Shown piece by piece: positions 45,166-58,097 of a DNA stretch of 58,138 nucleotides (position 1 is its first letter; every line of letters starts with the position of its first letter). The notes under the pieces are model-generated. The model searched no databases, was not told the DNA's origin, and saw only the letters and a list, made by a program, of their open reading frames with translations. This DNA is from Orenia metallireducens (lineage in GTDB: Bacteria; Bacillota; Halanaerobiia; Halobacteroidales; Halobacteroidaceae): NCBI RefSeq assembly GCF_001693735.1, contig NZ_LWDV01000006.1:270276-328413 (forward strand), written 5' to 3'. A program made the position numbers and the translations under genes.

Positions 45166-46725
45166 CTACTCTTCCACTGCTACAGGAAGAACCAACTCAA
45201 CTTCATCTTTACTTTGTAGAGCAGCTAATCCATTTATTCTCTTAAGATCATCTATAGAAACATCATACTTCTTGGCTATATTATTAATAGAATCAGTGAC
45301 ACTAACTTGATAATAACGATTCTTAGGCACAGGAATCAATAACTCTTGACCTACTTTCAACTTCTCTGGTGTATCTATATTATTATAGACCATAATCTCA
45401 GCAAAGGATATATTAAATAACTTCCCTATACTCCAGAAAGTATCAAATTTTCTTACTTTATATCTAAATGGCTTAATATTTTCTCCCCATAATTTATTTT
45501 GATTCCTATCTTCAGTCTCTATAATCTTAGGTGTAATGAAGATGACCAACTCTCTTTTTTGATTGTCTACTCTTCGTTTACTAAATAACTTTCCTAAAAG
45601 AGGAACATCACCTAACACTGGTACCTTAGATAGCTTTTCAATCTGTTTATCAGAGATTAGTCCTCCAATGGCAATGGTTTTACCATTTTGAACCATTATA
45701 TTTGTTGTAACATTCTTAGTATTAATTACTGGCATATTATCGACATAATCATTGACTTCACTTACTTCTTGGTTAATGGCAAGAGTAACAGCACCATTAT
45801 TGACCCTTGGAGTCAGCTTCAAAATCGTACCTACAGTTCTAAACTCAACCTCTCTAGTCGTTTCATCATCATCTTTTGTCTCTCTAATCACAGGTATCTC
45901 TTGTCCTATATTAATTATAGCTTCTTTTCCATCAACAGTTGCTAAATGGGGGTTAGCCAAAGTAACACTATCACCAGTTTCATTCAAAGCAGCTAAAATA
46001 CTCTGATATTCTACCCCTACATCACCAATTTCAAATATATTTGCTACTTTAACAGAACCAGCACTATCAGCATAATCCCAGACAATTGGTGCTCCATTTG
46101 CAGTAGTTTCTCTGGCAAAACTCCAATCTATCCCCATATTATCTAACTTATCACGAGAGATATCCTCTATTCTAGCCTCTATTATTACTTGTTTATTTGG
46201 TTTATCAAGCCTTTCAATTACCTTCTTTATCTCCTTTATCTCATCCTCATAGGCTGTGATTACGACACTTTTAGTCCTATCATCAACCTTTACTGCATCT
46301 TCCTTAAGCAATATACTTAAACTATTCTTCACTTCTTTAGGATTAGCATTGTCCAATTTAAATACCTCGGTAATTTTCTTATCAAAATTTGCCCTTAAGC
46401 GCTCTGGACTACCAACTAATATTGTATTACCTACAATTCGATAATCTAAGGCATTAGTCTTAGTTAGTAGCTCTATAGACTCTATAAAGGATATATCTTT
46501 AAGATTAACTGTAACTGTTCCTTGTACTGCATTATCTGTAATTACATTCATATCAGCTACATCTGCTAAAGCTCTAAAAGCATCCCTTAAATCAACACCT
46601 TTAAAACTTAAGTTAATCTTATCTTCTGCTGCCAATACTGGATAGCTAATCAATAAATTCATTAAAAGAATAAAATAAATTATACTTACAATTCTTCTTT
46701 GCTTTTTAATTATCATCACCCCCAA
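45166..46725 (-). CDS. pilQ: Type IV pilus secretin PilQ with two C-terminal LysM domains
   Basis: Forms the outer-membrane pore for the pilus. A signal peptide (~residues 12-33) leads to an STN-type domain (INLSFKGVDLRDAFRALA, ~38-90), an N1/NolW domain (VFKLDNANPKEVKNSLS, ~120-185), and the secretin domain (~185-410) with VPVLGDVPLLGKLFSKR near its end. Two LysM domains follow (~427-470 and ~474-517), where ordinary PilQ has none. AMIN domains, normally at the N-terminus, are absent, so the LysM pair may anchor the ring to peptidoglycan. Start is unclear: TTG 46725 has no ribosome site; ATG 46716 is too close to GGGGGTGAT. Overlaps pilP by 20 bases. Confidence 0.9.
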   Translation of the reverse strand: MGVMIIKKQRRIVSIIYFILLMNLLISYPVLAAEDKINLSFKGVDLRDAFRALADVADMNVITDNAVQGTVTVNLKDISFIESIELLTKTNALDYRIVGNTILVGSPERLRANFDKKITEVFKLDNANPKEVKNSLSILLKEDAVKVDDRTKSVVITAYEDEIKEIKKVIERLDKPNKQVIIEARIEDISRDKLDNMGIDWSFARETTANGAPIVWDYADSAGSVKVANIFEIGDVGVEYQSILAALNETGDSVTLANPHLATVDGKEAIINIGQEIPVIRETKDDDETTREVEFRTVGTILKLTPRVNNGAVTLAINQEVSEVNDYVDNMPVINTKNVTTNIMVQNGKTIAIGGLISDKQIEKLSKVPVLGDVPLLGKLFSKRRVDNQKRELVIFITPKIIETEDRNQNKLWGENIKPFRYKVRKFDTFWSIGKLFNISFAEIMVYNNIDTPEKLKVGQELLIPVPKNRYYQVSVTDSINNIAKKYDVSIDDLKRINGLAALQSKDEVELVLPVAVEE

Positions 46726-47338
46726 GAGTATAGATGTAGTATCCCCCTTTACTTTCCATTACTACTTCATCATCTTTTATCTCTTTTATTCTCAAACCAG
46801 CAAACTCTTCTCCAGCCTTCATAATCTGAATAATCGAGTCCTTCTTACCAAATTTTATAATAGCCACCTTGCTAATCTCACTATTTAACATCCCTAATAG
46901 TTCTATCTCCCTTGCTAGAGGATTAACCTTATTCTCTTTAACTTTGGGATTATTGCTTGTGTTATTATTCTTAGGTTGTTTAGCTATTTGAGATTTAACC
47001 AATTTATTCAGATTGACCTTCTCTACTTTCTTTAATAAGGTTTGAAAAGGGTCTTTAGTAGAATATTCTTTAATCGTTGAAGTCTCTTTACTAACCTCAG
47101 TTTCACTACCTTCTTCTGAAATAATCTCTCTATTCTCAACGACCTTTTTGGAAGTCTGGATTATATTATCTAAGTTATTACTAAATTGAACAAATTGTTG
47201 ATTATTTTTAGAAAAACTAACTATTTTATAAACCAACATCCCACTACTAGATAAGAATAATAAAAATACTAACCACAGAATTAATAAACGATTCTCTAGA
47301 AAATCTAAGATTTTATGATTATTTATAACCAGTTTCAC
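46706..47338 (-). CDS. pilP: Pilus assembly protein, PilP-like
   Basis: Inferred from place and architecture. One N-terminal membrane helix (ILWLVFLLFLSSSGMLVYKI), a long low-complexity linker (Ser/Thr/Lys/Asn-rich), then a ~65-residue C-terminal beta domain (LGMLNSEISKVAIIKFG to YYIYTLGG) like the PilP/GspC homology region that binds the secretin. PilP is usually a lipoprotein, but this one has a membrane anchor, as in GspC. The DPFQTLL motif before the linker is also PilP-like. GTG start; overlaps pilO by 4 bases. Confidence 0.75.
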   Translation of the reverse strand: MKLVINNHKILDFLENRLLILWLVFLLFLSSSGMLVYKIVSFSKNNQQFVQFSNNLDNIIQTSKKVVENREIISEEGSETEVSKETSTIKEYSTKDPFQTLLKKVEKVNLNKLVKSQIAKQPKNNNTSNNPKVKENKVNPLAREIELLGMLNSEISKVAIIKFGKKDSIIQIMKAGEEFAGLRIKEIKDDEVVMESKGGYYIYTLGGDDN

Positions 47339-47898
47339 TGTATATCACCCTTCCTATCTAGCGCATAACTTAACAAGGTTATTTTAGCCTCTAAATAATC
47401 TGCTTTATTAGAAGTCTTAACATTTAAATTCTCTATCCTTGTTAAATAATTTAAATACTTCACATCCTCTATATAATTTACAATCTGATTATAAGTTCCT
47501 CTTAATCTAACCTCTGCTGGTATTTTTAGGTAGATATCCTCTTGGATTATCTCTTTAGGTTCAATACTTAATATCTTAACATTCCTTTTCATAGCCAAAT
47601 TATTTAAATCAAGTAATAGATCACTCTCTTTACCCTTCTCTAAAAAGTTTTTCTGCCTACTCTCTAATTCCTTTAATAAACCTTTGTATTCTTCTTTTAA
47701 AAGCTGATTTTTAGATAACCTAGTATTCATAATCCTTAATTTATTAATAGACGTTTCGAGTTTATCTTTATTTTCATTTATCTTCTTAACCTGTGAGCTG
47801 AATAAGTAATAAACTCCCCCTATTACAATTATTAATATAAGTAAACTTATCATAAACTTCTCTCGGGGTTGTAATCTATCAAATCTCAGTATCATCAC
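47335..47898 (-). CDS. pilO: Pilus assembly protein PilO
   Basis: An inner-membrane alignment protein of the type IV pilus. One membrane helix near the N-terminus (FMISLLILIIVIGGVYYLF), a coiled coil (~35-85, KINENKDKLETSINKLR), and a C-terminal ferredoxin-like domain (YLKIPAEVRLRGTYNQIVNY, typical of PilO). It pairs with PilN in the periplasm. The start is ambiguous: GTG-ATG immediately follow GAGGGG, so spacing is poor. Overlaps both neighbours. Confidence 0.87.
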   Translation of the reverse strand: MMILRFDRLQPREKFMISLLILIIVIGGVYYLFSSQVKKINENKDKLETSINKLRIMNTRLSKNQLLKEEYKGLLKELESRQKNFLEKGKESDLLLDLNNLAMKRNVKILSIEPKEIIQEDIYLKIPAEVRLRGTYNQIVNYIEDVKYLNYLTRIENLNVKTSNKADYLEAKITLLSYALDRKGDIQ

Positions 47899-48484
47899 CC
47901 CTCTTCTCTAAATCAGCTAATTCTAGCTTCTGATTTATCTCTCCAGTAATCTTATAATAAAAGCCTTCAGCTGGCTGATAATCTTTAGAATAACGTATCT
48001 CTTCTTGATTAATAATATTTAACTTAATATTTAAGAAGACTTCTGAATCTCTCAAATTATCTACCATTAATTTTAAATCATCACCATTAATCGTATAGCC
48101 TTCAATAGTAAGTTCTTTATGCTCTTTTATACTTAATCTCACTAACCAGCTATTATCAGGAACAATACCCCTTAACTTATTTAATATAATAGACCAATAA
48201 ATATTCTTACCTACAACCTTATCTCTTCTTGCCAAACTCTTTGCTAACTTCTCTTTTTGAATTTCAATCTTTTTTAAATCTTTAGTTTCAGCACTAATCT
48301 CAAATATCTTCTCTTCTACTATATCTATCTTATTTTCAATAGCTTTATTTTGTAGTCTTTTATCTATATAAAAGGTTGTTATCGATAATAATACTGTTAA
48401 GAAGCTAAAAAGAATTATTAATACCATCAACTTTTCATTAAAACTTCTTGGTCTTGGATAATCTGGAGGTAATAAATTTATCAT
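47879..48484 (-). CDS. pilN: Pilus assembly protein PilN
   Basis: Begins MINLLPPDYPRPRSF, carrying the conserved NLLP motif that docks into PilM in the cytoplasm. One membrane helix (LMVLIILFSFLTVLLSITTFY, ~19-40), a coiled coil, then a PilN-type periplasmic domain (VRLSIKEHKELTIEGYTING). ATG behind GAGGGAGG; overlaps pilM by 47 bases and pilO by 20, giving tight translational coupling. Confidence 0.9.
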   Translation of the reverse strand: MINLLPPDYPRPRSFNEKLMVLIILFSFLTVLLSITTFYIDKRLQNKAIENKIDIVEEKIFEISAETKDLKKIEIQKEKLAKSLARRDKVVGKNIYWSIILNKLRGIVPDNSWLVRLSIKEHKELTIEGYTINGDDLKLMVDNLRDSEVFLNIKLNIINQEEIRYSKDYQPAEGFYYKITGEINQKLELADLEKRGDDTEI

Positions 48485-49529
48485 TTTTTCCCTCCTCCCT
48501 TAATGCAAGTCCAACACTTACTCCTAATAACTGTGCCACCTCTGATAAATATTTATCACTAGCCAACTCTGACCTTAAGCGGTAGGATAGATTTAGCTTC
48601 TCTACCCTTACCCCAAACTCTTTGGTTAAATATCTATCAAATCCCATCAAATTTGCTCCTCCACCTGTGAGAACTACCTTATCAATATCAACACCCTTAT
48701 ATTTAACTTGAAAATAATCTAAGGAACGGTATATAGATGTAATTAAATTCCTTACAATTAGATTAGTATCATTGTTATTAAACAAATTATTTCTCTTCTT
48801 ATAATCCTCAGCCTCTTCAAAAGAGTAATTATGGGTTTCAGAGATATCCTCAGTTATACTCTCTCCACCTAATCCAATAGTCCTAGTAAATAATAATTTA
48901 CCTTCATTTAAAATAGATATATCTGTAGTTTTAATTCCAATATCTATAACCCCAATAGTTCTAGCCATATATAATTTATCAATAGTTCTAGCCATAGCTA
49001 TCGGTTCTATCTCTATAGCTACCGGTTCTAATCCTAAAGATTCAAATAGACGTAAATATTTATTGATTAAATCCTTCTTTACTGCAATTAATAAGACCTG
49101 ATATCCTCTACCTTCCTTTCTCTCTAAGATTTCATAATCTAAAACTGCATCTTCAATTTGGATTGGTAGCTTCTCACTAGCTTCCCATTTGACTGCTTGA
49201 TTAAGCTCTTCTTCAGACATATTAGGAATATCAACCATCCTACTGATTACCTGCTCTCCACTGATCGCCGCTACCACTTTTTTAGCTTGAAATTCCTTCT
49301 CTTTTAAAACCTTACCCAATTTCTCTTCTAACTTGATTATATTATTTAAATCACCATTTTTAACAGTATCATCTGGTACAGGGATAATAGCTAAATTATT
49401 CAAAACTATATTACCCCAACTACTATAAACCTCTGTTAACTTAATAGTTTCATCACCAATATCCAAACCAATTAAATTTTTATCCTTGAATAATTTAAAC
49501 CTCTTCTTTAGTGAATTAAATATCCCCAT
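48438..49529 (-). CDS. pilM: Pilus assembly ATPase-fold protein PilM
   Basis: A cytoplasmic actin/FtsA-like protein that binds PilN. Nucleotide-binding loops LIGLDIGDETIKLTEV (~19), GVIDIGIKTTDISIL (~190), and the late KVVLTGGGANLMGFDRYL are visible. The central PSWEASEKLPIQ-like segment reads NQAVKWEASEKLPIQIEDA. 363 aa. ATG behind GTGAGGTG. It is the first intact gene after the broken pilX-like gene. Confidence 0.93.
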   Translation of the reverse strand: MGIFNSLKKRFKLFKDKNLIGLDIGDETIKLTEVYSSWGNIVLNNLAIIPVPDDTVKNGDLNNIIKLEEKLGKVLKEKEFQAKKVVAAISGEQVISRMVDIPNMSEEELNQAVKWEASEKLPIQIEDAVLDYEILERKEGRGYQVLLIAVKKDLINKYLRLFESLGLEPVAIEIEPIAMARTIDKLYMARTIGVIDIGIKTTDISILNEGKLLFTRTIGLGGESITEDISETHNYSFEEAEDYKKRNNLFNNNDTNLIVRNLITSIYRSLDYFQVKYKGVDIDKVVLTGGGANLMGFDRYLTKEFGVRVEKLNLSYRLRSELASDKYLSEVAQLLGVSVGLALREEGKNDKFITSRLSKTKKF

Positions 49530-49554: not shown

Positions 49555-51703
49555 TTAGTTTCCCTGCATTAAACGCGGGTCACCATCTACTAGCTTTATC
49601 ATAAAATCTTTGACTGGATTATCATCATTATCACCTAATAGCTTGTCATCTGCTTGATACTTGATTATAATATTGTCATTGAAATCTATTCCATTACAGG
49701 TTAATCCTAATGTTCTAGTATCAACCTGCTCAATATCGGTTATAATCTCCTCTCCATTATACTCAACAATTGGAGTTTCAAATTTAAAGTACTTCTTTAA
49801 GTTAGTTAACTTGTATTCTGTTAAGATAGCTAATTGTTCATCAAACTCAAAATTAATCTTTTTATCTTCTACTTTTACTTCAACCTTCTTCATAGCAGGT
49901 TCTGCTCCAGCCAAGCTTACTTCAAAAAACTTAGCTTTATTATTAGTTCCCCAGCTTCTAAAGCCTATATATCTACCAGGTAAAGCATCAGCTACATTAC
50001 CTCTATTATTATCCCTATCTTTGAAATATTTCCAATTCATCTTTTTCCCCTTAAAAGTAAGTCCGTTATATTCTACTCTCATAGTATTACCAAAATAAAC
50101 CTCATTTGATTCATTACCATATTCATCTACAACTTTTATTCTGACAATCAAGTCATCAGCATAACCATCAAAATCATCATCTGGTTGAGTTTGAACCTTA
50201 ATAATCGTCTTATACCTCCCATTCCAATCTGCAAAGTCATCCATCTTAAAGTTGTCATTCTCTAGCTCATAGCGTGTATAGGTTCCATTTCCAGTATAAG
50301 TTGTAGTCTCTTGATATAAGCCATCTACTAATTTAGTGCCAACTTCCTTATCATCTTCCCAATCATGTTTCCCCTGATAAGCCCTTCTAAATAATAAGCC
50401 TGCCGCTCCAGGGTCAAATTAAAATAAATAGCCATAATCCTCTTTCTGCTCATGATCATATATTCCCCGCAATACAACACCATATTGGCAAGTAGTCTTA
50501 TGCTACTTACCAAAGAGGTAGCATAAATAATCTTTACACCAGACATACTTCCTTTTACCGTTATATTCCCACCAGAAATAATATTTCCTGCAATGTTACC
50601 AGCTAATAGTAGAATATCAGCACTATTCGAATAGATACTGCCATTAAGATCCCCTTCTGGACTAAAAGTCTCACTCCCAGCATAGTATATTATTAAATTA
50701 TCTTTGTTATCAAATTGCCCTATTACACCACTATCATTAATATCAAGTTGATTTTCAAGATAAACCTTCACTACCCTCATGGTATTTGCTCCAACTTTTT
50801 TTTCTAGCTTTATTCTCCCATTGTCATGAACTACCAAATTATTCACCAAGATTGCTCTTCCTTCTTCTCCAACTTTTACTATCAACTCTCCATTGTCATT
50901 AACCACTATTTGATTATAAGAACTGTCATTACTAATCACTGCTTGTTGATTATCGCTAAGGGTTAAATCCTTATTTTCTCCTAATCCTTCTGGCATTTGA
51001 GGAAAAGCAGGCATGATATAACTAGAAGGAATGATTGTTTTAACTTCTCCCTTTATACTATTATTTTCTAAAAGAGCCTTAATAAAGCTATCTGCAGTCC
51101 CTTCTCCTACATAAGAATCTCCACCTACCTTAATCCCACTTCCAATCGTTAAATTATCCTTATTAGCAATAGTATTAAATTTAAAGCCACTATCAATCTC
51201 AACATTTTCTTTTAAATTAAGACCATGTAAAGCAATTATAGCTTGGCCAAAATCAATCCCTGGTATATATCTTTTTGGAATCATCTCAACCATAACCTGG
51301 CTTGTCTGTTCTCCAGCCCTTCCTTCTGCAGTTATCCGCAAATCTTTTCTAAAATAACTACCATCACCATTAATAAATTTCTTAACTATTTTAGCATTAA
51401 CCCGATATTCTTTATCAGTATCTCTTCCAAAACTATGCCATTGACTCCATCTACCATCATCAATATTATCAAAATAGTTTTCAATTGTAGAAACGTTTTC
51501 CTTTTCAACCCAATCTCTCATTGAAATAGCTACAGAATGAGCAATATAATAGGCCTCTGTCCTAGCTGAATCATTAACAGTTTGTCTAATATGTGATACT
51601 GTCATTGAAGTTAAAACAGTAGCAAAAACAGTTAACGCCATTAAAACTGACATGACTAAAAAAGTGCAGACCCTTCTTCTAAACTATATAATTTATCAAT
51701 AAT
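49555..51703 (-). pseudogene. PilX-like minor pilus component, broken by two frameshifts and a stop codon
   Basis: The 5' fragment reads LYSLEEGSALF in one frame, then hits TAG. Adding one T to the T6 run (plus strand A6 at 51658-51663) restores EEGSALFLVMSVLMAL and the rest of a PilX-type N-terminus (membrane helix, then TVSHIRQTVNDSARTEAYYI). The middle fragment (50331-51653) continues through a long beta-rich section. Near 50430-50510 the coding frame shifts: the other frame gives GVVLRGIYDHEQKEDYGYLF, a TAA stop (50421-50419), then FDPGAAGLLFRRAYQGKHDW and on to the 3' fragment, which ends at 49555. The last ~45 residues of the middle fragment are out of frame. The start would be ATT, behind a good GGAGG. 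Either a recent pseudogene or several sequencing errors. Confidence 0.75.
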
Positions 51704-51768
51704 ACCTTTTACCTCCTATATAGATGTATAATTTTAAAATTAGTAAAAATCTTAAGAAAATTTTTTTC

Positions 51769-51903
51769 CACAGATCTACACAGCGCCCTGAATGAAGTGT
51801 TCTTTACTTCATAAAGAAGTACTCTTGGGGTAATTTTCCTGGATTAGTTCAAAACCTTTTTAAACAATAAATTTTTTCTCTTTATCTGTGTTAATCTGTG
51901 GCT
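51769..51903. repeat. MITE-like element with CCACAGAT inverted ends
   Basis: CCACAGATCTACACAG on the left and CTGTGTTAATCTGTGG on the right form inverted ends. Inside is CTTCATAAAGAAG-like hairpin sequence and no ORF. It lies between pilD and the pilX-like gene; a copy of the TATAG-type repeat adjoins on the right (51914-51942). Confidence 0.5.
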
Positions 51904-51913
51904 AATAATATTT

Positions 51914-51942
51914 TGACTTCACTTTAAAGTTGGGTTACTATA
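51914..51942 (-). repeat. Dispersed TATAG-type short repeat, copy 5
   Basis: On the minus strand TATAGTAACCCAACTTTAAA, at the right edge of the CCACAGAT element and touching the 3' end of pilD. Confidence 0.45.
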
Positions 51943-52692
51943 CTACAAAAATAAACCTATATACCAATTGATAATATCTTCTCCCCACAATATCATCAAT
52001 AAAGCTGCCATTGCAATAAATGGACCAAAAGGGATTCTATCCTTTCTCCCCTTAATACCTGTTATCATCAATCCAACACCTATCACTGAACCTATAAATG
52101 CTCCAAGAAAGATAGTAGCTACAGCATACTTCACTCCAATAAAAGCACCTATCATCGCTATCAGTTTTACATCTCCTACACCCATACCACCTTTGCTAAT
52201 AATTACTATCAACAATAAGATAGCTGCTGGTATTAAAAGGCCTAAGAGTGCAGAATAAAGGGTCTGATATTCAAAGAAAAGGGCGAAAATGAAACCTAGT
52301 ACAATTCCAAAATAATTAAGGTAATCAGGAATAATCATATACTTTAAATCAATCAGACTAGATACTATTAATAGGCAGGCTAAGACTACGTAGATTAATA
52401 ATTCAATACTTAGTTTATATTTCCAGTATAGAGCAAAAAAAATTATTCCTGTCAATATCTCAACTAGAGGATATTGATAAGAAATATTCTCACTGCAATA
52501 GCGGCATTTTCCTTTATTAAAGAGAAAACTGAATATAGGTATTAAATCAAAAGCCTTTAAATTAGTCTGACAATTTGGACAATGTGATGGTGGAAAAACA
52601 ATTGACTCTTCTCTAGGTAATCGGTAGATTACTACATTTAAAAAACTTCCTATGATTAATCCATAAATAAATACTATACTTGCTATGAACAT
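51943..52692 (-). CDS. pilD: Prepilin peptidase / N-methyltransferase
   Basis: Cleaves the leader of prepilins after Gly and methylates the new N-terminus. Seven to eight membrane segments. The N-terminal cytoplasmic domain has the four zinc cysteines (CPNC ... CRYC, ~residues 38-70). The two catalytic aspartates lie in LIDLKYMIIPD (~115) and GVGDVKL (~175). ATG at 52692 preferred over the GTG nine bases upstream; both have weak ribosome sites. Its substrate, the prepilin, is encoded just upstream. Confidence 0.93.
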   Translation of the reverse strand: MFIASIVFIYGLIIGSFLNVVIYRLPREESIVFPPSHCPNCQTNLKAFDLIPIFSFLFNKGKCRYCSENISYQYPLVEILTGIIFFALYWKYKLSIELLIYVVLACLLIVSSLIDLKYMIIPDYLNYFGIVLGFIFALFFEYQTLYSALLGLLIPAAILLLIVIISKGGMGVGDVKLIAMIGAFIGVKYAVATIFLGAFIGSVIGVGLMITGIKGRKDRIPFGPFIAMAALLMILWGEDIINWYIGLFL

Positions 52693-52789
52693 TGTTATCA
52701 CTCATTTCTATAGTAATTATTATTTAAGACCCTACTTTTTAATAGAAGGTCAGATTTTATAATTATACAATATTATAAATTATTCTTCT

Positions 52790-53293
52790 TTATTCTCCAC
52801 TTCCACTAAGCTTTATAGTACCAGCTTCTTCATTAGAAGCGGTACTTGATGTTGTACTTACAGCTTTATCTCCAACATAATATTTAGTAGTGCTTTTTGC
52901 AGTAATTTCAAATATATACTGATATGTATCATTAGTAGTATTATTAGTATACGAATAAGTAGCTTGAGTTGCTACTGGATTAGTACCAGTTATAAGTTCT
53001 TTTAAATCTTCAACAGTATCTGACATTCCAACCTTTGTTAGCTCAATATCTAAATCAGTATAATTAGTAACTTCAGGGTACTTATCTTCCTGTGCAAAAT
53101 ACATTTCCATGGCAGTTCTCAAAGTACCACCTACAGTAGTTATTTTAGCCTCTTTAGCTTTAGTTTTTGCACCACTCAATTTGGGAATAGCAATCCCTGC
53201 CAAAATACCTAAGATAGCAATAACAATCATTAATTCAATTAAAGTAAAACCTTCCTCACTACTGTTCATCATTCTTCTTATCTTACTAACCAT
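52790..53293 (-). CDS. pilA: Major-type prepilin (PilA/GspG-like)
   Basis: A class III signal sequence: a short charged leader MVSKIRRMMNSSEEG, cleaved after Gly15, then FTLIELMIVIAILGILAGIA with Glu at +5 of the mature protein, the pilin polymerisation helix. The helix continues as KTKAKEAKITTVGGTLRTAM; a ~100-residue Thr/Ser-rich globular head follows. No Cys pair is seen, so there is no disulfide-bonded D-region. ATG behind AAGGAG. It is the only prepilin in the cluster with an intact signal. Confidence 0.93.
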   Translation of the reverse strand: MVSKIRRMMNSSEEGFTLIELMIVIAILGILAGIAIPKLSGAKTKAKEAKITTVGGTLRTAMEMYFAQEDKYPEVTNYTDLDIELTKVGMSDTVEDLKELITGTNPVATQATYSYTNNTTNDTYQYIFEITAKSTTKYYVGDKAVSTTSSTASNEEAGTIKLSGSGE

Positions 53294-53466: not shown

Positions 53467-54672
53467 CTAAATCCCATCTAACATATTAAACATTGGTAAC
53501 ATAATCGATAAGACAATTCCTCCTACCACTATTCCTAACCCTACAATGAGCAAGGGCTCAATTAAGGAGACCATTCCATTTACTTTATTCTCCACCTCTT
53601 TCTCATAAAATCCAGATACTCTCAATAACATCTCATCTAATCTACCAGTCTCTTCACCAATCTTGACCATCTGAAGTAACATTTTGGGGAATATCCTTCC
53701 ATGCCTTAAAGGTAAAACCATACTCTCTCCTTCAGTGATAGCCTTTTTGGCCTCTAAAATATTCTCTGCCACTACCCTATTAGTCATAATCTTGGCAACT
53801 ATATCAAGGCTCTCAATAATAGGGACACCACTACTGATTAAGACACTTAAGGTTTTGCTAAAACGGGCAGTTGCTAATTTAGTACTTAAATCTCCAATTA
53901 AAGGAACCTTTAATAATAATTTATCAATATTACGCCTTCCTTGTTCTATTCTGTAGTAAGAGTAGATAGCACCTACACCTACACCAAGTATAGCTAACAC
54001 AAACCACCAATAAGAAGATAAAAAATCACTTGAAGCAAGCACAAATTCCGTAATAGCAGGTAACTCCATATCCATTCCTGCAAACATATCAACAAAGGTT
54101 GGTAATACACCTACAGTCAGAAATATAACTACAAAGACAGATACAATACTGATAATTATAGGATAAACCAATGCAGAGGTAACCTTCTGTTTCATTTCAT
54201 TCTCATTCTCCAAGTGAGCTGCCACCTCTTCTAAAGACTCATCAAGTAACCCTCCTGCCTCTCCAGCAGCTACCATACTAATAAATAGCCTAGGAAAGAC
54301 CTTCTTCTCTTCTTCTAAAGCCTTTGATAATGCCATCCCACCCTCTACCTTCTCCTTGATAGATAAAATTGTCTCTTTTAACTTTAGATTAGTGCTTTGG
54401 CTAAGTAAAATATCCAAAGACCTAACCAATGATATACCTGCATTAATCATAGTAGAAAATTGGCGACAAAAGACAGCTAAATCCTTAAGAGTAACCCTTG
54501 TAAAGGCTTTAAAATTGATATGTATATTCCTGTCTTCATATTTTTTAATACTAATTATATAATATCCTTTGTCCCTTAATCTTTTGGCTACTATTTGCTC
54601 ATTATCTGCATCCATTAATCCCTCTAAACTACTACCTTCAGTATTTCTTGCTTTATAAACAAATTCCGCCAT
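53467..54672 (-). CDS. pilC: Type IV pilus inner-membrane platform protein PilC
   Basis: The platform on which pilins are assembled. Two repeated GspF domains (about residues 67-190 and 270-393), each with the FCRQFSTMINAGISLVRSL-type start; three membrane helices near 165, 215 and 375. MAEFVYKARNTEGSSLEG is the usual N-terminus. 401 aa. ATG behind GGGAGG. It lies between pilT and pilA. Confidence 0.95.
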   Translation of the reverse strand: MAEFVYKARNTEGSSLEGLMDADNEQIVAKRLRDKGYYIISIKKYEDRNIHINFKAFTRVTLKDLAVFCRQFSTMINAGISLVRSLDILLSQSTNLKLKETILSIKEKVEGGMALSKALEEEKKVFPRLFISMVAAGEAGGLLDESLEEVAAHLENENEMKQKVTSALVYPIIISIVSVFVVIFLTVGVLPTFVDMFAGMDMELPAITEFVLASSDFLSSYWWFVLAILGVGVGAIYSYYRIEQGRRNIDKLLLKVPLIGDLSTKLATARFSKTLSVLISSGVPIIESLDIVAKIMTNRVVAENILEAKKAITEGESMVLPLRHGRIFPKMLLQMVKIGEETGRLDEMLLRVSGFYEKEVENKVNGMVSLIEPLLIVGLGIVVGGIVLSIMLPMFNMLDGI

Positions 54673-54792: not shown

Positions 54793-55851
54793 TTAGATTA
54801 AATTTTTTATATAATTAATATTATTGGCTCTATTTAAAATATCATCCCAGTTCACCTTATTCTCTTGATAGAGTTTCTTCAATGAATAGTCCATCGTATG
54901 CATTCCAGAATTCCTACTTGTTTGCATTACCGATTCAATCTGGTGAACCTTGCCTTCTCTAATCAGATTCCTAACTGCATTATTTACGATTAACAGTTCA
55001 GTAGCCAAAACCCTATTTAGACCGTTAGAGGTAGGAATTAATTGTTGAGATAATATCCCTTGTAATATCAATCCTAGTTGGGTTCTAACCTGTTGTTGAT
55101 GATGAGGAGGAAAGACATTGATAACTCTCTCGATACTCTCTGCAGCTCCATTTGTATGTAAGGTTCCTAAGACTAAGTGTCCTGTTTCTGCTGCTGTAAT
55201 TGCTGTAGAAATAGTATCTAAATCTCTCATCTCACCTACTAAAATAATATCAGGGTCTTGCCTTAATGCTGAACGTAATCCATTAGCAAAACTTAATGTA
55301 TCAGAACCTATTTCCCTTTGATTGATAATGGACTTATCATAGCGATGAACATATTCAATTGGATCTTCAAGGGTAATAATATGTCTATCTACTTTATGAT
55401 TAATAAAATTAATAATTGAAGCCAAAGTAGTTAATTTACCACTTCCAGTGGGACCAGTAACTAAGAACAACCCCCTTGGCCTTAAAGCAATCTCTTTTAA
55501 TTTTTGGGGTAATCCCAATTCGTTTAAAGGTGGAATTTTATGGGGAATTATTCTTAAAACTCCACCAGCACTACCCCTTTGGTGAAAAGCATTAACCCTG
55601 AAACGATGATCAAAACCATCACAATCTAAATGAAAAGCAAAATCGACCTCTCCCCTTTCCTTAAATATCTTCTTGTGATGTTCTTGCATCATTCCCAAAA
55701 GTAAGTTAGCCATCTTGTCTGGAGTTATTACTTCATTACCAATAGCCTTTAACTTACTATTAATTCTAGCCATAGCCTGAATACCAACAGCTAAGTGAAT
55801 ATCTAAAGCTCCCAATTTGACACCTTCTTTTAATAAATTCTCTAATCTCAT
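54793..55851 (-). CDS. pilT: Pilus retraction ATPase PilT with altered Walker A
   Basis: A hexameric ATPase that withdraws pili (twitching motility). The Asp-box, Walker B (DPDIILVGEMRD, ~199-210), and His-box (TGHLVLGTLHT) are present. Walker A reads GPTGSGKLTT: the Ser/Thr that binds Mg2+ after the Lys is Leu140 (TTA, 55432-55434). One base change from TCA (Ser) would explain it. All else looks intact, including the C-terminal region. The change should weaken ATP hydrolysis. ATG behind AAAGGAAG; it starts 14 bases after pilB. Confidence 0.92.
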   Translation of the reverse strand: MRLENLLKEGVKLGALDIHLAVGIQAMARINSKLKAIGNEVITPDKMANLLLGMMQEHHKKIFKERGEVDFAFHLDCDGFDHRFRVNAFHQRGSAGGVLRIIPHKIPPLNELGLPQKLKEIALRPRGLFLVTGPTGSGKLTTLASIINFINHKVDRHIITLEDPIEYVHRYDKSIINQREIGSDTLSFANGLRSALRQDPDIILVGEMRDLDTISTAITAAETGHLVLGTLHTNGAAESIERVINVFPPHHQQQVRTQLGLILQGILSQQLIPTSNGLNRVLATELLIVNNAVRNLIREGKVHQIESVMQTSRNSGMHTMDYSLKKLYQENKVNWDDILNRANNINYIKNLI

Positions 55852-55865
55852 AATTAGTACTTCCT

Positions 55866-57581
55866 TTACCCAATGAATTCAGGCTTTCCTAGTTGTACTT
55901 TAGTAACTCTCATTATCTCTTCTAATGTAGTAATACCTTTATTAACTTTATGCAAACCAGAGGCTTCTAGAGTAATCATCCCATTTTCTATTGCCCTTTC
56001 AGCAATATCCTCTGTTGAAGCCCCTTGTACTATCATTCTTTTTAGAATATTATCAATCTCTAAAATCTCATGAACAGCAGCTCGTCCTCTATAACCTGTA
56101 TCATTACACTCCCTACAACCTTTTCCATGATAAAAATTAATTCTATCTTTCCCTTTACCTAAATACCTTTCTAAATCCTTGTCTACTAATTTTTCTCGAG
56201 ACTTGACCTTACAATGTGGACATATTTTTCTTACTAGGCGCTGTGCTACAACTCCTACAACCGAAGATGACACTAAAAAAGGCTCTACTCCCATATCTAT
56301 TAACCTTGATAAAGCACCAGCAGCTTCATTAGTATGTAGAGTACTTAAGACTAAATGTCCAGTCAAAGCTGCGTTAATAGCAATCTTTGCTGTTTCTCTA
56401 TCACGAATCTCACCTATTAACACTATATCAGGATCTTGACGCAAAATAGCACGTAAAGCACTAGCAAAGGTCATTCCTGCTTTATCATTGGTCTGTACTT
56501 GATTAATTCCTTCTAATCTATATTCAACTGGATTCTCAACTGTAATAATATTTTCATGCTCATTATCCAGTGAATTTAATGCTGAATAAAGAGTAGTTGT
56601 TTTACCACTACCTGTAGGACCAGTGATTAGTATCATTCCATGAGGATAATTTATCATCTCTTTAAAAACTCTCAAATGTTCAGGTAAAAAACCTAAATCC
56701 TCTAAATTCAACATAAGATTACTTTTATCTAATATTCTCATAACTACTTTTTCTCCCCTAACAGTAGGTAAAGTGGATACACGCAAATCTATCTCTTTAC
56801 CATGAATAACCATTTGAATTCTACCATCTTGAGGAATTCGCCTTTCGGCTATATCTAAATCAGACATAATCTTTATTCTAGATACTAAAGCAGCTAGAAC
56901 ATTTTTGGGAATATTTATCCCATTATGTAAAAGACCATCTACTCTATATCTAACCTGTACATCGTTATCTTTTGGTTCTATATGGATATCACTTGCTCTT
57001 AACCTGACACCATCAGCTATGATATTATTCACTAGTTTCACAATAGGAGCATCATCTACCATTTCTCTTAATTCATCTTCTTTGATATCTTCTTCTTCTG
57101 CACTCTTCCATTCTGCATCAATATCATCTAGAAATTCGTTTAATATATCATTATTTCCAAAATATTTTTCTAAGACATGATTAATTTCAGTCTTAGTAGC
57201 AATAACAGGGATAACCTCACAATTAGTCTTGATTCTAATATCATCTATTGCTAGTACATCTAGCGGATCTTCCATAGCTACAGTTAAAATATTTCCTCTC
57301 TTTTTAATAGGTATAGCATGATGTCTTTGAGCTAGAGTTGATGGTATAATTTTGATTATATCTGAATCAATAACAAATTTGTTCAAATCTACTTGTGGAA
57401 TCCCTAACTGAAATTCTAATGCCTCTACTAAGTCCTGTTCACTGACTAAACCTAGCTCTTGTAAAACTCCACCTAACCGTTTATCACTCCCCTTTTGAAT
57501 CCTTAAAGCCTTATATAATTCTTCTTCTGTAATAAATCCTGCTTCAACTAAAATATCTCCTAACTTCTTCTTCTTAATCAC
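55866..57581 (-). CDS. pilB: Pilus extension ATPase PilB
   Basis: Powers pilus assembly. An MshEN domain at ~1-145 (possible c-di-GMP binding, known for some relatives), then the ATPase with intact Walker A GPTGSGKTTT (~325), Walker B DPDIVLIGEIRD, and the zinc motif CPHC ... CREC (~460-500). A frame-open ATG at 57599 would precede the ribosome site; GTG at 57581 is 7 bases behind CGGAGG and is chosen, giving 571 aa. First gene of the pil operon. The MshEN domain could link pilus extension to the EAL protein, but this is inference. Confidence 0.94.
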   Translation of the reverse strand: MIKKKKLGDILVEAGFITEEELYKALRIQKGSDKRLGGVLQELGLVSEQDLVEALEFQLGIPQVDLNKFVIDSDIIKIIPSTLAQRHHAIPIKKRGNILTVAMEDPLDVLAIDDIRIKTNCEVIPVIATKTEINHVLEKYFGNNDILNEFLDDIDAEWKSAEEEDIKEDELREMVDDAPIVKLVNNIIADGVRLRASDIHIEPKDNDVQVRYRVDGLLHNGINIPKNVLAALVSRIKIMSDLDIAERRIPQDGRIQMVIHGKEIDLRVSTLPTVRGEKVVMRILDKSNLMLNLEDLGFLPEHLRVFKEMINYPHGMILITGPTGSGKTTTLYSALNSLDNEHENIITVENPVEYRLEGINQVQTNDKAGMTFASALRAILRQDPDIVLIGEIRDRETAKIAINAALTGHLVLSTLHTNEAAGALSRLIDMGVEPFLVSSSVVGVVAQRLVRKICPHCKVKSREKLVDKDLERYLGKGKDRINFYHGKGCRECNDTGYRGRAAVHEILEIDNILKRMIVQGASTEDIAERAIENGMITLEASGLHKVNKGITTLEEIMRVTKVQLGKPEFIG

Positions 57582-58097
57582 CTTATATCCTCCGATCATT
57601 ATAAATAATTGTCTGCTTTATTTGGATTGCTTAAAGTCATAATGTTTATAATAAAAAAACCCACAAGAATACTTAAAATAAGAGTATTACTTAATGGATA
57701 TACTTATAAAATTATTAACTTATGATAATTATAACTCCATAAAAATTATCCATTTATTTATATCTTATACGGTAAAGATAAAGAATTTATAGGCTCTTCA
57801 GCTACCTTTATAAAAATAATTTGTAAAAGTAAAAAACATTTTCAATTCGCAAAAATTAGTGTACATTGTTCATTGTTGAATTAATTTATGTTTTAAAATA
57901 ATTTAATATAACATTATTTTCTTTATTAATAATCTTATTTTTATTATAAATAATTGTTTTTAATAAAAAAGTATCTAATTATTATTGTTACCACTATAAA
58001 ACAACTTTTAAAAAGCTCTTATTAATAATATATTCTATATTTAGTATTTTATTCCTCCGAGAAATAAATTTTTATGATAATAAATTAAATAATTTGT
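57582..58097. other. Intergenic region upstream of pilB
   Basis: Extremely AT-rich DNA with no gene seen on either strand. It should contain the pil operon promoter, which I could not identify with confidence. Confidence 0.5.

Follow-up and report, generated by a model that had tools for sequence, protein, structure and literature searches.

The window, by which we mean the whole stretch of 58,138 nucleotides analysed here, carries a type IVa pilus operon of Orenia metallireducens in which pilT adjoins pilB and pilC (Table 1). The genes for the major pilin, the prepilin peptidase, PilB, PilC and PilM to PilQ are intact, and the reading frame of pilT is open and uninterrupted. The pilT product scored 461.3 bits against the PilT/PilU model TIGR01420, above the curated cutoff of 319.1, and the PDB PilT structure 2gsz aligned with it over positions 3 to 342, i.e. 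nearly its full length (E = 1.6e-106).

Table 1. Features of the type IVa pilus operon, with their positions in the window.
Feature	Position	Strand	Description	Basis
pilM-pilN-pilO-pilP-pilQ	45166..49529	minus	Alignment complex and secretin, intact	
Minor-pilin cassette remnant	49555..51700	minus	Single fused remnant	Comparison with congeners
pilD	51943..52701	minus	Prepilin peptidase, intact	
pilA	52790..53293	minus	Major pilin, intact	
pilC	53467..54672	minus	Platform protein, intact	
pilT	54793..55851	minus	Retraction ATPase of the PilT/PilU family, 352 aa, only copy in the genome	
Q251H	55099..55101	minus	Gln in 27/27 relatives	Alignment
H171Y	55339..55341	minus	Just after the ASP box; His in 27/27 relatives	Alignment
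Leu140 codon (TTA)	55432..55434	minus	Walker A Ser/Thr position	Sequence and alignment to relatives
T21A and P26A	55774..55791	minus	Replaced residues present in 27/27 and 26/27 relatives	Alignment
Leu16 codon (TTA)	55804..55806	minus	Replaces Ser of 27/27 relatives outside the genus and of both congeners	Alignment
pilB	55866..57599	minus	Extension ATPase, Walker A GPTGSGKTTT, intact	

The preliminary description of this DNA reported a Leu in the Walker A motif of PilT and an ordinary motif in PilB of the same operon. Re-reading of the sequence confirmed both: PilT has GPTGSGKLTT, with TTA as the codon of Leu140, and PilB has the canonical form. PilT is thus without a complete GxxxxGK[S/T] motif (it reads GPTGSGKL). 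As judged from the translation and the 2gsz alignment, the other motifs are all kept, namely the ASP box EDPIE(YV) with its Glu, the catalytic Glu after Walker B (GEMRD) and the HIS box GHLVLGTLH (TGHLVLGTLHTN in translation). As a rule in P-loop NTPases, the Ser or Thr that follows the Walker A Lys is a ligand of Mg2+ (PMC9599734), and in PilT-type ATPases the Glu of the ASP box also holds Mg2+ (PMC5424180). Leu140 deprives PilT of a hydroxyl that helps to hold Mg2+ beside ATP, and poor binding or hydrolysis of Mg-ATP would be expected; since the ASP-box Glu is intact, residual PilT activity may persist.

The comparison with the PilT of relatives, proposed in the same description, gave Ser or Thr at position 140 in all 29 PilT read from related genomes (Ser in 28, Thr in one) and Leu in none. 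Outside the genus the count was 26 Ser and one Thr among 27, and both congeners have Ser, which rejects a Leu variant shared by the genus. In the nearest congener, whose PilT is 84% identical, the codon is TCA, a single C>T transition away from the TTA of the window.

We also scanned 84,980 species genomes with a degenerate pattern consisting of GPTGSGK, a codon whose second base is T (which gives Leu, Phe, Ile, Met or Val) and Thr-Thr. The scan covered such middle-T codons in a GPTG[S-like]GK..TT context, in a set that may not contain the species of the window. Seven stretches were found, and none of them was an intact PilT with a hydrophobic residue at the Walker A Ser/Thr position. Three were Lon-like proteases, two were GspE/PilB-like proteins with Val or Ile after the P-loop Lys (L038 and L039), one was a degenerate relative of PilT (L037) and one was spurious (L041). 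A wider family of Leu-type PilT proteins was rejected, since this pattern found no member of it in the 84,980 genomes. In the genome of the window the pattern had exactly one match. The matching pattern with Ser or Thr occurred in 219 of the 299 genomes of the phylum, a count that includes PilB and GspE besides PilT, so that the backbone of the pattern is common. The degenerate PilT relative, from Armatimonadetes, has Val in its P-loop and an open frame, is devoid of the ASP-box and Walker B Glu, and is likely a pseudo-ATPase. The Lon-like proteases come from three Chloroflexi genomes (L035, L036 and L040) and read GPTGTGKLTT, with Leu at the Mg-ligand position; as all three keep this motif, Leu is not absolutely excluded from a retained P-loop protein.

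The rest of PilT had been described as intact. This holds for the frame and the main motifs but not for the conserved sites. In an alignment of nine genomes, eight substitutions in the window (S16L, T21A, S140L, H171Y, Q251H, V266I, D276N and I333V) hit columns at which the remaining eight genomes do not vary. They make up 8 of its 17 private PilT changes. The sister species has 0 such changes among 19 (Fisher p = 0.0008), and five further pil genes of the window's genome (pilB, pilC, pilD, pilM and pilQ) together have 13 among 127 private changes (p = 0.0006); the test rests on small counts. When 27 PilT sequences from outside the genus were used instead, S16, T21, S140, H171, Q251 and I333 were still conserved sites, and P26A was added to the list. 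S16L and S140L arose by the identical step, TCA to TTA. A branch dN/dS test gave an omega of 0.057 for pilT with no overall acceleration (LRT p = 0.38), and relaxation along the whole pilT branch was rejected on these grounds. Any relaxation, if real, must therefore be recent; a rough, back-of-envelope estimate places it in about the last 3% of the branch. The omega values of the other pil genes on this branch, pilA aside, ranged from 0.06 to 0.21. Leu140 is most simply explained as belonging to a group of several decay mutations, without invoking a motor of a new type.

When the complete 3.47-Mb genome was searched for a second PilT or PilU, none was found, the other four matches being long proteins of the PilB/GspE type; takeover by a second PilT/PilU was rejected for this reason. 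In Vibrio cholerae, PilT with a dead Walker A motif (K136A) still allows retraction when PilU is present; when PilU is missing, the cells show hyperpiliation and only rare retraction (PMC6821130). With no PilU in the present genome, the expected state is one of no or poor retraction: nothing else would be there to drive it, and any pili still made would be static. The Walker A change in this sole PilT is probably crippling, judging from the sequence. The poor use of ATP and poor retraction predicted earlier fared well in this respect, given that a Mg-ligand Ser is lost, PilT is the only copy, PilU is absent and further conserved sites are damaged, all of which favours loss or weakening. The same description had also offered a PilT with a non-catalytic role, and nothing we found spoke positively for it. 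A structural function, for instance as a brake or platform, would fit the open frame and the main motifs kept, and the dead V. cholerae PilT does support PilU-driven retraction; here, however, there is neither a PilU nor a second PilT to be supported, and the additional conserved-site changes resemble relaxed constraint and not a new conserved state. We consider such a role very unlikely.

The second lesion of the operon concerns the minor pilins. In both congeners the interval from pilM to pilD holds three minor-pilin genes, and the operon of the window lacks the minor pilins of a functional type IVa pilus. What is left is a PilX-like gene whose frame shifts within a stretch of T close to its start (near position 51655), joined near position 50500 to the C-terminal part of a PilW-like gene; in the PilW-like piece, TAA stands in frame at a codon that encodes Gln in both congeners, and the middle, PilV-like gene has been deleted from the cassette. 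Neither the PilV-like nor the PilW-like gene has a second copy in the genome, in which only distant pseudopilins matched, and weakly; small pseudopilins encoded in other clusters might substitute for the lost minor pilins. Just upstream of the remnant, between it and pilD, lies a dispersed intergenic repeat (positions 51740-51925), partial copies of which recur elsewhere in the genome, at 17 places, and whose ends look like imperfect inverted repeats. The destruction of this cassette, which belongs to the same operon as pilT, went unmentioned in the preliminary description. It also bears on the outcome proposed there, pilus extension with no retraction: this is possible but incomplete as an account, since the minor pilins that prime or stabilise pili are destroyed as well.

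Both lesions could in principle stem from an error of sequencing or assembly, with TCA misread as TTA in pilT and further errors in the minor-pilin region. The genome is indeed a draft in 12 contigs, the codon differs from that of the congener by a single base, and the T-run frameshift, if considered by itself, might reflect slippage or an error. One miscall, however, cannot produce the seven to eight additional uncommon substitutions of pilT, nor the neighbouring deletion, which spans more than a single gene, and the nonsense codon distinct from it, all amid surrounding genes whose frames are intact. The seven to eight independent substitutions in pilT in particular make a sequencing error now unlikely, and we give this possibility hardly any credence. 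No second assembly of the species was found.

Two relatives place these lesions in a wider frame. A genome of the same order (G010, L069 9056-19554) has a syntenic operon that cleanly lacks pilT at its usual place between pilB and pilC. A genome of the same family (G007, L068 1013-4994) has pilB, pilT and pilC each split into two frames by frameshifts or stops, which reflects either decay or a poor assembly. Together they indicate that loss of PilT is recurrent in the group. The second genome, in which all three genes are broken, also favours general decay of the operon, in which type IV pili would no longer be used and the remaining genes would merely not have been hit yet; other pilus-like systems of the present genome could make the operon redundant. 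Further pilus- or secretion-like clusters are found at four places in this genome (L060, L062, L063 and L064), each without PilT; L060 holds a complete set of PilB, PilC, pilins, PilM, PilN, PilO, PilP and secretin, and L064 holds a minor-pilin set beside aroC/aroK. General decay is at odds with the state of the other genes: no frameshift or stop was seen in pilB, pilC, pilD, pilM and pilQ, and by a rough estimate about 24 extra conserved-site changes over background would be expected in these five genes if they had been relaxed for as long as pilT, whereas 13 were seen in all. We regard general decay as somewhat unlikely.

The reading we favour, and consider likely, is an early stage of selective loss, in which the retraction motor and the genes of the pilus tip would be without function and the genes for extension and the scaffold would be kept. 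It draws on Leu140 and its rarity, on the single PilT, on an excess of changes at conserved sites that is confined to pilT and on the destroyed minor pilins. It is supported as well by the retraction deficiency of the V. cholerae K136A strain without PilU, by the role of the Ser/Thr in holding Mg2+ and by the same-order operon without pilT. The open PilT frame and the low omega of the whole branch, which bespeaks a mostly constrained history, count against it. Most likely, then, the pilus-building machinery has been kept and the ability to retract lost; our best reading of the outcome is a type IV pilus system that is extension-only or idle, the loss being young.

Selective loss includes a special case, compensation, in which the minor pilins were lost first and piliation fell; loss of PilT would then have been favoured, as pili with poor caps would no longer be retracted and a static, useful pilus would be left. 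In Kingella kingae, inactivation of pilT in a fimT-pilVWXE deletion raises surface piliation (PMC12607826), as compensation would have it, and PilB, PilC, PilD and PilM to PilQ are intact and less relaxed than pilT here. The same pairing of losses is met in Francisella tularensis type B, where pilT, pilE and pilV are pseudogenes and pilA is kept (PMC2941502). In Myxococcus xanthus, however, mutants in pilX1, pilV1 or pilW1 do not regain pili when pilT is deleted (PMC8833165), and the order of events is not readable from one genome. Furthermore, the same-order operon lost pilT and yet kept its small minor-pilin genes, so that the two losses are not strictly coupled. Compensation is in our opinion unlikely. 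Slightly fainter is the prospect of a natural static type IVa pilus, in which loss of the tip module is stabilised by loss of the retraction motor and an extension-only pilus is made with no minor pilins supplied by its own operon.

If selective loss is correct, the operon would offer a clean natural case in which the genes for retraction and for the tip go and the extension machine stays, a pairing with a laboratory counterpart in Kingella and a natural one in Francisella tularensis type B, and it could be used to ask whether PilT loss buffers the loss of minor pilins. Loss of the PilT gene in itself is of a kind already known from other bacteria. The F. tularensis type B locus resembles that of the window in the natural joint loss of pilT and of minor-pilin genes (pilE and pilV in that case) with pilA kept; it differs in that its pilT has a stop codon and its lineage is unrelated, the pilT of the window having a missense change in the P-loop and an open frame. 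The same-order genome likewise keeps pilB, pilC, pilA, pilD and pilM to pilQ without a working PilT, but its pilT was deleted outright and its small minor-pilin genes remain. The Chloroflexi Lon-like proteases share the Leu after the P-loop Lys; they belong to an unrelated protein family, in which Leu is present in all three found. Compared with the PilT of type IVa pili (TIGR01420; PDB 2gsz, 6ojx and 3jvu), the protein of the window is a full-length member with the pilB-pilT-pilC synteny, the ASP box, the Walker B Glu and the HIS box, and it differs in the Leu at the Walker A Ser/Thr position and in seven other substitutions at positions that do not vary among eight relatives.
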